DNA of 58,932 nucleotides from Acidobacteriota bacterium (GTDB lineage Bacteria > Acidobacteriota > Terriglobia > Acidiferrales > UBA7541): NCBI GenBank assembly GCA_003223295.1, contig QHYM01000125.1, positions 1-58,932 on the forward strand, given 5' to 3'. The notes beneath the pieces were generated by a model, which was not told where the DNA came from, made no database searches, and saw only the letters and a list, made by a program, of their open reading frames with translations. Made by a program: the position numbers and the translations under genes. Shown piece by piece: positions 21,508 through 28,221 of this stretch (position 1 is the stretch's first letter; each line of letters starts with the position of its first letter).

Positions 21508-21787
21508 AAACGCCTTAGTTTCTTTGCTTTGGCCAGGCGTTGATTCTAACTCCGAAGTTCGTCGAGAGACGCGCGGCGGCGTCAGACATTCCATTTCAAT
21601 GATTGGTGGCATCTTAGTGAAAGGTGCATTTCCCGTGCCAGTTCTGGGAGCAATTGCACAAAGTTACCGAAAGGAAGCGCGTGGATTTCTCGGGTTCTCG
21701 GGTACAATAGAATTACAGTCTCAGGTGTTCGATGAGACTCTGGGGCCTCGGTGTACCCCTATCCAAATTTGTAATTAAGTGAGGAAA

Positions 21788-22915
21788 ATGCCGGTACCAG
21801 TTTCACAAATGTGGACGGTTGCGACCTACGTCCTGAAGCAAAAGCTGCAAGGACGCAAGCGCTATCCCTTCGTGCTGATGCTCGAACCCTTGTTCCGCTG
21901 CAATCTGGCTTGCGCGGGCTGTGGAAAGATTCAGTATCCCGCGCACATCCTGAAAAAGGAATTGTCGCCCGAGGAATGCTTCAAAGCCGTGGACGAGTGC
22001 GGCACGCCGATGGTTTCGATCCCCGGCGGCGAACCGCTGATGCATTCTGAAATCGAGAAGATTGTGGAAGGGCTGGTGCTCCGGAAAAAGTACATTTACC
22101 TCTGCACCAATGCCCTGCTGCTGAAAGAAAAACTGCATCTCTTCAAGCCGAGCAAGTACCTGACATTTTCTGTGCATGTGGATGGTCAGAAAGAGCACCA
22201 CGATTTTTCAGTGTGCCGCGAAGGGGGCTACGACTTGGCCCTGGACGGCGTCAAGGATGCACTGAAACGCGGCTTCCGCGTCACCACCAACACCACGCTC
22301 TTCGATGGGGCCGATCCCAAGAGCGTCCGCGCCTTCTTCGACGAAATGATGGAGATTGGCGTCGAGGGCATGATGCTTTCGCCGGGGTACTCCTACGATA
22401 AAGCTCCGGATCAAAAGCACTTCCTGGGGCGCGCGCGCACGCGGCGGTTGTTCCGCGCGATCCTGGCGAACCGCAAGAAGAGCTGGAAATTCAACCAGTC
22501 GCCTCTCTTCCTAGAATTCCTGATGGGCAAGCGCAACTATGCCTGCACGCCATGGGGCATGCCCACGTACAACGTCTTCGGCTGGCAGAAACCTTGCTAT
22601 CTACTGCAGGACGGCTATACCGATACGTTTCAAGAGCTGCTGGACTCCACGGAATGGGAGAACTATGGCACGGAGTCTGGTAATCCCAAGTGCGCCAACT
22701 GCATGGTGCACAGCGGTTACGAGGCTTCCGCGGTCGACTACACGTTCAGTGGCTGGCGCGGCATTTGGGCTACCGTGAAAGCAAGCTTATCGACGACGTA
22801 CTCCGATCCGGACGCTTTTGCCATGTTGGATGAGCCGGTGAAACCCGTGCATTCCTACAATCCGCTGGTGCAAATCGAAACCGGCAAGGGCCAGTTTGAG
22901 GAGACCCATGTATGA
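21788..22915 (+). CDS. hpnH: Adenosyl-hopene transferase HpnH (radical SAM)
   Basis: 375 residues from ATG 21788. The upstream GTG 21779 overlaps the GAGG ribosome-binding sequence, and family members begin near this Met. The radical-SAM cluster motif CNLACAGC (C-x3-C-x2-C) lies at residues about 37-44, followed by GKIQYPAH, SIPGGEPLMH and CTNALLL, all typical of HpnH. A Cys-rich C-terminal region (YACTPWGMPTYN, PKCANCMVHSGYE) matches the family. HpnH joins 5'-deoxyadenosine to squalene-derived hopene, the first step of C35 bacteriohopanepolyol synthesis, so the organism makes extended hopanoids. A possible -10 box TACAAT lies at 21703-21708. It overlaps the next gene by 4 bases. Confidence 0.95.
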   Translation: MPVPVSQMWTVATYVLKQKLQGRKRYPFVLMLEPLFRCNLACAGCGKIQYPAHILKKELSPEECFKAVDECGTPMVSIPGGEPLMHSEIEKIVEGLVLRKKYIYLCTNALLLKEKLHLFKPSKYLTFSVHVDGQKEHHDFSVCREGGYDLALDGVKDALKRGFRVTTNTTLFDGADPKSVRAFFDEMMEIGVEGMMLSPGYSYDKAPDQKHFLGRARTRRLFRAILANRKKSWKFNQSPLFLEFLMGKRNYACTPWGMPTYNVFGWQKPCYLLQDGYTDTFQELLDSTEWENYGTESGNPKCANCMVHSGYEASAVDYTFSGWRGIWATVKASLSTTYSDPDAFAMLDEPVKPVHSYNPLVQIETGKGQFEETHV

Positions 22916-23361
22916 GTGGTCCCCGGCACGCAGACCGTCCTAGCCACACCGAAGGGTCTCCGCTGGATCCGGATCACCTGGAGGTGGCCCCAGGAACGGC
23001 ACATGAAACGGTGCAGGGCTGGGTTCCGCAGCTTGCTAGTGAAGATGAATTGCGCATTGCCTTGGAAAAAGCGTTCGATTATCGAGGCGATGTGACGCTG
23101 ACGCTCAAAGATAATTCAAAAATCGAGGGTTACGTCTTTGATCGCGTTGCAGGGGATTCTCTTACCAGCAGTTTCGTCCGCGTGATGCCCAAGGATGCTA
23201 GTCAAAAACTGAAGGTGGCATACGCCAATATTGCGGCACTTGCCTTTACAGGAAGAGACACTGCGGTGGGCAAGGGCTGGGAAGCCTGGGTTCGCAAGTA
23301 TTGGCAAAAAAAGGCCTCGGGTGAGGGGGATTTGAGCCTCGAACCCGAATCCCTCGAATAG
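22912..23361 (+). CDS. Conserved-type hypothetical protein co-translated with hpnH
   Basis: 149 residues; its ATG overlaps the hpnH stop (ATGA), so translation is coupled. The first 40 residues are polar and Pro-rich. Residues about 45-135 form a compact domain: a helix (DELRIALEKAFDY), then a beta-rich region DVTLTLKDNSKIEGYVFDR ... SFVRVMPKD ... LKVAYANIAALAFTGRDTA, ending in WEAWVRKYWQKK. The beta pattern loosely recalls a small SH3- or Sm-like barrel, but no family is recognised. No signal peptide or membrane span. The operon position suggests a role in hopanoid synthesis or its control, which is inference only. Confidence 0.75.
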   Translation: MSGPRHADRPSHTEGSPLDPDHLEVAPGTAHETVQGWVPQLASEDELRIALEKAFDYRGDVTLTLKDNSKIEGYVFDRVAGDSLTSSFVRVMPKDASQKLKVAYANIAALAFTGRDTAVGKGWEAWVRKYWQKKASGEGDLSLEPESLE

Positions 23362-23399: not shown

Positions 23400-23580
23400 A
23401 AGCACCGCTTAAGCCTTTTATTTTTAATAAGTTAGAATATATCCCCAATGGTCCCCTGTGTGTGGTTCTGCGTGGACAAACCCTCCGTTTTATGGTAGTT
23501 TATTACTAGCGTTTGTTGCTCTTGTATTACCTTTTGACTCGTTCGAGGGGCTGCAAGGACAAACTTTGCGGCCTTTTTTT
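23400..23580 (+). ncRNA. Candidate small RNA or leader ending at an intrinsic terminator
   Basis: The 450-base gap after the hpnH operon contains an AT-rich stretch at about 23410-23446 with a possible -10 box (TAGAAT in TTAGAATATAT). About 100-130 bases later there is a strong terminator (23549-23580). No open reading frame with a ribosome-binding site lies between them. It could be a stable small RNA, or only the read-through end of the hpnH transcript. No known RNA family was recognised. From 23581 to 23812 nothing else is seen. Confidence 0.35.
23549..23580 (+). terminator. Strong intrinsic terminator
   Basis: A 10-bp stem, GGCTGCAAGG (23549-23558) with CTTTGCGGCC (23564-23573), including two G-U pairs, has a 5-base loop and is followed by seven T (23574-23580). 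It lies 188 bases after the gene co-translated with hpnH. Confidence 0.9.
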
Positions 23581-23812
23581 ACGGGCGGGAGGCAGTCGCG
23601 GCGTGACTGCCGCCGGAGTACCAAGCAGACGGACCAAGAGAGGCAAAGCAATTCTCATTGACAAGGTAGTGTAAGTGAAGGAACAAGGCACGGTGAAGCA
23701 GGCAGAGAACGTCGTAAGCCTCTAGCCTGTTTTGGCGGCCCTGGTCGCGGCCAGGGCTTCACTCCAAGATTCGAATCGCGATTTTAGACCGAGCGTGGTC
23801 AAGGAGGACGTT

Positions 23813-24064
23813 GTGCAAGTAATGCAGGAAGGTCAGACCATCAAACATGAAGTGTACGGCTTGGGAATCGTCACCGCTTCCGACCTGGAGCGCACTTCCG
23901 TGGATTTTGACGACCATGGTCCCAAGCTGTTTGTTACCAGCATCATGACTGCCGAACTGATCGGCGAAGCTCCGGCCACTCCGCCAAAGACCAAGCGCCG
24001 TCGCAAAGCTTCCGCAGCAGCCAAGGCTGCCAAGAAAGCGGCAGCAGCTGCCAGCCGTTCCTGA
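23813..24064 (+). CDS. Small tudor/SH3-like protein with histone-H1-like basic tail
   Basis: 83 residues from GTG 23813, chosen because AAGGAGG (23801-23807) is 5 bases before it; the next ATG (23822) is too far. Residues 5-50 (GQTIKHEVYGLGIVTASDLERTSVDFDDHGPKLF in outline: G-x-x-V/I-x-H...G-x-G-x-V...V-x-F...G-x-K-x-F) follow the pattern of the small beta-barrel at the C-terminus of UvrD/PcrA helicases that binds RNA polymerase. Residues 58-83 form a Lys/Ala/Arg tail (KTKRRRKASAAAKAAKKAAAA) like histone H1 or bacterial HctB. A nucleoid- or transcription-associated protein is inferred. Confidence 0.72.
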   Translation: MQVMQEGQTIKHEVYGLGIVTASDLERTSVDFDDHGPKLFVTSIMTAELIGEAPATPPKTKRRRKASAAAKAAKKAAAAASRS

Positions 24065-27837: not shown

Positions 27838-28221
27838 TCACCAACGATTGCCGCGATCACCGCGGTCGCCGCGATCTCCGCCGCGCCCGCCGCCATGGCC
27901 GCCACGTCCGCCGCCACCGCCGCCGCGCCCGCCGCCGTATCCGCCGCCGCGCCCGCCGCCACCGCTGCGCTCCGCCTGAGGACGTGCTTCGTTGACCACC
28001 AGGTTTCGCCCGCCGAAATTCTGGCCGTTCAAGGAATTAATCGCGCGGTCTGCATCTTCGTCGCTATTAATCTCAACGAACGCGAAGCCGCGAGATTGGC
28101 CCGTAAAACGGTCACGAATGAGATTGACACCCGAAGGGGAGACTCCTACCTGAGAAAACCACTCTTGAAGCTGATCTTCCGTCGCCGAAAACGGAAGATT
28201 ACCGATGTAGAGCTTCTTCAC
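27838..28221 (-). CDS. RRM-type RNA-binding protein with glycine-rich RGG tail
   Basis: 127 residues. One RNA-recognition motif (1-80) with RNP2 LYIGNL (residues 4-9) and RNP1 RGFAFVEI (about 44-51), plus GQNFGGRNLVVNEARP at the end of the domain. The tail (about 88-127) is almost entirely Gly/Arg with repeated GGRGG and GDRGDRG units. Bacterial proteins of this design are best known from cyanobacteria, where many are cold-induced and bind RNA. Chaperone or RNA-localisation roles are plausible here. A 268-base divergent region separates it from the acyl-CoA ligase gene. Confidence 0.93.
   Translation of the reverse strand: MKKLYIGNLPFSATEDQLQEWFSQVGVSPSGVNLIRDRFTGQSRGFAFVEINSDEDADRAINSLNGQNFGGRNLVVNEARPQAERSGGGGRGGGYGGGRGGGGGGRGGHGGGRGGDRGDRGDRGNRW

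Follow-up and report, generated by a model that had tools for sequence, protein, structure and literature searches.

The C-terminal Tudor domain of PcrA/UvrD (PF21196; PDB 5DMA, 6YI2, 7EGS, 7EGT and 9DQS) binds a site on RNA polymerase (RNAP) that, as PMC8318588 sets out, is central to the debates on transcription-coupled repair and R-loops; the partner motif given there is [VIL]DxxTGE[VIL][VILT], the 'helicase interaction motif'. According to PMC5397179, RNAP binding by the isolated PcrA domain drops severely with any one of the substitutions H681A, W684A, K712A and L714A, and CarD and Mfd have their docking sites at other places on the β subunit. DUF3553 (PF12073) is a UvrD-like Tudor domain, as is the one described here; in DinX it forms the C-terminal tail of a polymerase, unlike our stand-alone protein (PMC6511836). 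The CarD/Mfd RID (PF02559) and the RapA Tudor domain (PF18339) are likewise Tudor-like RNAP binders, with weak Pfam matches to the family described below.

Here we describe an 83-aa protein, hereafter the Tudor protein, encoded within a 58,932-nt stretch of DNA from an Acidobacteriota genome (hereafter 'the window'; the source genome comprises 6.03 Mb in 481 contigs). It is like the PcrA/UvrD Tudor domain in predicted fold, sequence profile and counterparts of RNAP-binding residues. Unlike that domain, it is free-standing with no helicase, has one loop trimmed by about four residues and continues into a basic tail, scores below the Pfam cut-offs, and in some branches has relaxed the His and Lys of the putative docking face. 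A picocyanobacterial Tudor-domain protein reportedly has an RNA-binding function, going by the title of Bauer et al. 2019, and may be comparable with the Tudor protein. Among papers retrieved on UvrD/PcrA Tudor domains, the helicase interaction motif, DUF3553, cold-shock proteins, and stand-alone and picocyanobacterial Tudor proteins, no title or abstract opening described this family. The domain type is known; what is new, as far as this literature shows, is its free-standing, basic-tailed form and the linkage of that form with cold-shock (csp) and RRM genes, hinting at a small factor in transcription or RNA biology.

A conserved gene under purifying selection

The gene occupies positions 23813–24064 on the + strand, and its product combines an N-terminal G-x(4)-H-x-x-Y-G-x-G pattern with a K/R/A tail. 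We assign the start to the GTG at 23813, given that a ribosome-binding site, AAGGAGG (23801–23807, +), lies five bases 5′ of it and is retained in relatives, that an alternative ATG at 23822 reads CTG in two related loci (L003 and L032), and that a more distant locus (L049) has ATG at the position of the GTG. The gene is retained by 35 of 36 same-genus genomes, that of the window included, at 76–98% identity, which argues for a gene over a chance ORF. Comparison of 30 same-genus sequences, taken over every pair, gave a pN/pS of 0.09 in the barrel (47 codons) and of 0.036 in the tail (its first 15 codons); pS is near saturation, such that these values are approximate. We conclude that 23813–24064 is a genuine gene on which purifying selection acts strongly.

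The predicted barrel is related to the Tudor domain of PcrA/UvrD

The initial annotation had likened the N-terminal part to the UvrD/PcrA barrel, and had made this proposal depend on an SH3-like fold and on conservation in relatives. AlphaFold2, run with 20 sequences, predicted a Tudor/SH3-like barrel in residues 1–48 (23813–23956, +), with four strands at residues 9–12, 16–23, 27–32 and 36–41. Block pLDDT was 82–88 over residues 1–40 and under 50 in the tail, for a mean of 66.3 and a pTM of 0.42. A Foldseek search with the predicted model returned UvrD/PcrA C-terminal domains in all four top rows, with weak E-values (0.065–0.34) and probabilities of 0.97–1.00. VIA-align Z scores were 6.8 for 7egt_B and 7egs_B, 6.3 for 9dqs_B, 6.2 for 5dma and 6.0 for CarD and RapA; with values this moderate and this close together, the fold does not by itself point to UvrD.

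Sequence profiles of the family favour UvrD over CarD and RapA. A profile built from 35 members (A1) matched 7egt_B in the PDB with an E-value of 2.7e-6, followed by 7egs_B (9.5e-5), 6yi2_A (1.1e-4) and 9dqs_A (5.9e-4). A profile of close relatives alone (A2) gave weaker matches, the best being 9dqs_A at 0.044. When 31 UvrD tails of the phylum were compared with A1 using hhalign, the probability was 98.6% (E 5e-16, 49 columns). At E-values up to 1, PF21196 weakly matched 19 of the 35 members, as did DUF3553 (best E 3.1e-4), while CarD_TRCF_RID (PF02559) matched 11 and the RapA Tudor domain (PF18339) six. Among ten members scanned singly, the best scores fell short of the gathering cut-offs, at 19.8 bits for PF21196 (cut-off 23.9) and 16.2 for DUF3553 (cut-off 20.3). 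The window protein matched neither of these, nor by itself any other Pfam or NCBIfam family, and a PF21196 search of its own genome found the UvrD tail and missed the Tudor gene. Given profile homology with sub-cut-off scores, the Tudor protein is a PF21196 homolog, yet no member by Pfam's threshold.

The Tudor gene carries no fused SF1 helicase: the 83-aa frame has its own start and stop, and the helicase, an intact UvrD with its own tail, is encoded elsewhere in the same genome. In a tree of 56 columns, which comes with a long-branch warning, the 35 stand-alone rows fell on one side and the 31 UvrD tails on the other, with support of 87/93. The Tudor protein is best read as a free-standing relative of the C-terminal PcrA/UvrD Tudor domain, with a predicted barrel; the resemblance noticed initially thus holds in the PDB profile search, the fold search, the profile–profile comparison and the counterparts of the RNAP-binding residues.

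Putative docking residues and a basic tail

Judged by pattern and spacing, PcrA residues H681, W684, F705, K712 and L714 probably correspond to H12, Y15, F32, K38 and F40 of the window protein, which we treat as putative dock residues. Counterparts of these residues are also found in the UvrD tail of the same genome. Across the 35 rows of A1, the first position is H in 21, Q in 12 and E in two; the second Y in 30 and F in five; the third F in 34 and W in one; the fourth K in 19 and R in 16; and the fifth F in all 35. In the 31 UvrD tails of the phylum, H, F and K are invariant at the first, third and fourth positions, the second is Y in 16 and F in 15, and the fifth is L in 23, F in six and M in two. 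The aromatic and L-to-F differences between the window protein and PcrA are as in UvrD tails. The window clade has the full UvrD-like residue set; in other branches the His is relaxed and the Lys replaced by Arg.

The RpoB and UvrB encoded by the window genome contain near-forms of the helicase interaction motif, NRQTGEVLL and IDPLTGEVR, with one departure each. We searched 30 partner genomes for RpoB, of which 26 had an rpoB match and 24 had a locus covering the region; all 24 readable sequences contain [VILA][DN]xxTGE. Because bacterial RpoB commonly carries TGE, finding the motif permits docking and does not discriminate.

Residues 54–83 (23972–24061, +) form a Lys/Arg/Ala tail, predicted by AlphaFold2 to be disordered; its 30 residues are 33% K/R and 40% A and carry a net charge of +10. 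Tails are basic in all 35 members (+4 to +26; K/R 25–45%), while their sequence is variable, their length ranges from 14 to 73 residues and their Ala content from 6 to 46%. Net charge of the barrel part is −6 in the window protein, −5 or −6 within its clade and −3 to +2 elsewhere. Bacterial H1-like proteins have Lys/Ala-rich tails. The initial annotation had called the tail histone-H1-like; the Lys/Ala basic tract is real and its charge conserved, and the likeness to H1 holds for composition, nothing in our tests showing homology or a nucleoid role.

Distribution of the stand-alone gene

We detected the Tudor gene in 50 of 61 relatives. Searching with a single sequence recovered it from 33 of 297 genomes sampled over the phylum. 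The A1 profile matched 207 of 396 genomes, 38 of them strongly (E 3e-17 or better). Most of the remaining matches (E 1e-10 and above) sit in frames of 700–1000 aa or more, in keeping with most of these being tails of UvrD-type helicases. We saw no stand-alone gene in a large family (f11) of the same class as the window genome. The stand-alone gene is therefore widespread across the phylum yet patchy; the conservation in relatives on which the proposal had depended is seen within the genus (35/36). In a search for close relatives, 18 of 19 loci came from MAGs titled Acidobacteria-type or Terriglobia; the other (L047) is titled Betaproteobacteria and is perhaps a mislabelled MAG. A plasmid cargo search with the family gave no match, and PHROGs gave marginal matches only, for two and one of the 35 members.

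Seven same-genus genomes carry a second Tudor-tail copy, about 50% identical. Of the second copies at L141–L146, four (L142–L145) follow an RRM gene and two (L141 and L146) a csp gene.

The Tudor gene is linked with csp and RRM genes

Within the genus, 28 of 30 loci have a csp gene as the immediate upstream neighbour of the Tudor gene, the exceptions being the window genome and L011; among the close named loci L031–L048, 17 of 18 have csp directly upstream. In more distant branches, the upstream gene often encodes an RRM protein. We counted neighbours by hand for 63 stand-alone genes in 57 genomes: the same-strand upstream neighbour within 500 nt matched the Pfam family RRM_1 in 18 loci and CSD in 14, for a total of 32/63. 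With 5.9 such genes per genome, 0.023 of the 63 loci would be expected by chance, although the loci are related by descent, such that a binomial comparison overstates the linkage. The link recurs in ten families (csp in f1, f2, f4, f6 and f90; RRM in f1, f25, f34, f56, f75 and f94). In one genome (G318) the Tudor gene is directly followed by an RRM gene, and in two (G258 and G047) an RRM gene adjoins it on the opposite strand. The other 31 loci have no csp or RRM gene upstream within 500 nt; for 17 of these we read the surroundings as a mechanical ORF list and saw no common partner. To our knowledge, DUF3553 has no link with csp or RRM genes. The gene neighbourhood points to RNA chaperones rather than chromatin.

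In the window, the upstream csp gene is reduced to a remnant of 16 codons (23675–23725, +), the first eight codons being joined in frame to the last eight; relatives have 67 codons, and 153 bases are missing in frame relative to L032. This is either a real deletion or an assembly fault. The genome contains five other CSD genes. A GC-rich hairpin (23737–23758, +) lies between the csp remnant and the Tudor gene. Its sequence differs among loci and the hairpin persists; no T-run follows it here, and one does in L136 and L141. Given this hairpin, co-transcription of csp and the Tudor gene is uncertain: the two may share a transcript that reads through a leaky terminator, or be expressed separately.

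Upstream of csp, alignment and folding identified a conserved leader (23511–23585, +) with a hairpin (23545–23577) running into a T-run. The hairpin has a folding energy of −18.8 kcal/mol (z −5.5), and the leader, strongly conserved in 25 aligned loci, is possibly an attenuator of the csp gene. Covariation in the hairpin is weak, with one of eight pairs changed on both sides (RNAalifold; the stem is shifted in some alignment rows). A promoter and terminator scan listed no promoter; it gave 2 terminators, close to the 1.1 obtained from shuffled sequence, and the leader hairpin was not among them; an Rfam search over the whole window, leader included, gave nothing at the gathering threshold. Two other readings of this region were set aside: a bglG-cis-reg match in the upstream gap is far below gathering and was taken as chance, and the upstream 67-aa ORFs, clustering on both strands, were rejected as a conserved non-coding stretch since their translations are csp genes.

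Possible functions of the Tudor protein

Docking, nucleic-acid binding and any cold-shock or RNA-chaperone role of the Tudor protein are inferred. In the model that we favour, to which we give a little less than an even chance, the Tudor protein works alongside RNA chaperones, bound by its barrel to the TGE motif of RNAP β and by its tail to RNA or DNA. The barrel would sit on the TGE β-hairpin, or helicase interaction motif, of the β subunit, the same site as that used by PcrA, and the flexible basic tail would hold nearby RNA (or DNA). The Tudor protein would in this way bring nucleic-acid binding to the transcribing polymerase, with CspA or RRM chaperones encoded alongside in about half of the loci, and it might compete with UvrD for the dock. 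However, His is replaced by Gln or Glu in 14/35 members and Lys by Arg in 16/35, at positions where alanine substitution is reported to abolish PcrA binding (PMC5397179); moreover, TGE is widespread in RpoB of bacteria, and the Z scores are middling with CarD and RapA nearly tied. The combination of docking with a chaperone role also has to accommodate the 31/63 loci without an upstream csp or RRM gene, a window genome that lost its csp partner and kept the Tudor gene, and an intergenic hairpin that leaves csp co-transcription uncertain. Extending the model to a class of small, RNAP-tethered cofactors of RNA chaperones found across the phylum, in which a detached UvrD-type Tudor domain would dock on the helicase site of RNAP, hold nascent RNA with its basic tail, work with CspA/RRM partners and gate the access of UvrD, is in our judgement unlikely.

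Other explanations share part of this evidence. The Tudor protein might be an RNA- or DNA-binding chaperone with barrel and tail both on nucleic acid and no polymerase docking, and the csp/RRM neighbours and the basic tail would fit this. The UvrD C-terminal domain (CTD) itself weakly binds DNA according to PMC7585439, and a picocyanobacterial Tudor protein is linked with RNA binding by the title of its paper. However, PMC7585439 describes the DNA-binding face of that domain as positive, whereas the barrel has a net charge of −6 in the window clade; furthermore, the protein-docking residues are retained, and the isolated PcrA CTD bound no DNA in the work described in PMC5397179. We consider this explanation somewhat unlikely. 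The closest fold match, 7egt_B, is the Thermus UvrD CTD crystallised with UvrB, PcrA is described as using one surface for both partners (PMC8318588), and the UvrB of the window genome has IDPLTGEVR, all of which would suit an accessory nucleotide excision repair factor whose dock is the UvrB TGE motif instead of RNAP; nevertheless, we recognised no repair gene among the recurrent neighbours, the linked genes being csp and RRM, and regard this role as quite improbable. The initial annotation had suggested a nucleoid or transcription-coupled factor. A histone-H1-like, DNA-compacting nucleoid protein, with the barrel as a protein contact, would account for the Lys/Ala-rich tail, but the likeness is compositional only, the linkage is to RNA-binding genes, and many members have tails that are short (14–25 residues), with several Ala-poor. 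A nucleoid role is thus the less likely part of that suggestion, and we give it a low probability; a transcription-linked role is plausible. Small size and the absence of a Pfam or NCBIfam match for the window protein alone are what a non-functional sequence might display, be it a chance ORF or a detached UvrD relic. A spurious ORF is ruled out by conservation and selection, and a split or relic UvrD tail by the genome's complete, tail-bearing UvrD and by the separation in the tree; with purifying selection, a conserved start and ribosome-binding site, and phylum-wide homologs, we give lack of function a negligible probability.

If the favoured model of docking on RNAP β is correct, a separate small protein that uses this dock would naturally compete for the PcrA/UvrD site or serve it as an adaptor, and the csp/RRM linkage would tie this site to RNA chaperones. 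It would also provide a testable function for a conserved soil-bacterial protein that scores below Pfam cut-offs.

Other small genes near the Tudor gene

The window encodes a glycine-rich RRM protein of 127 aa on the − strand (27838–28221), 3.8 kb from the Tudor gene, which is on the other strand. Right after hpnH (21779–22915) there is a 149-aa ORF (22912–23361, +) with a short, beta-rich look ('TLTLKDNSKIEGYVFD'); it has no Pfam or NCBIfam match, and a related stretch lies upstream of the Tudor gene in L036. Finally, five distant loci (L114, L118, L120, L123 and L125) share a small basic ORF of about 70 aa ('RPTQNKRARERARLEKRQQKEARR') in the vicinity of the Tudor gene.
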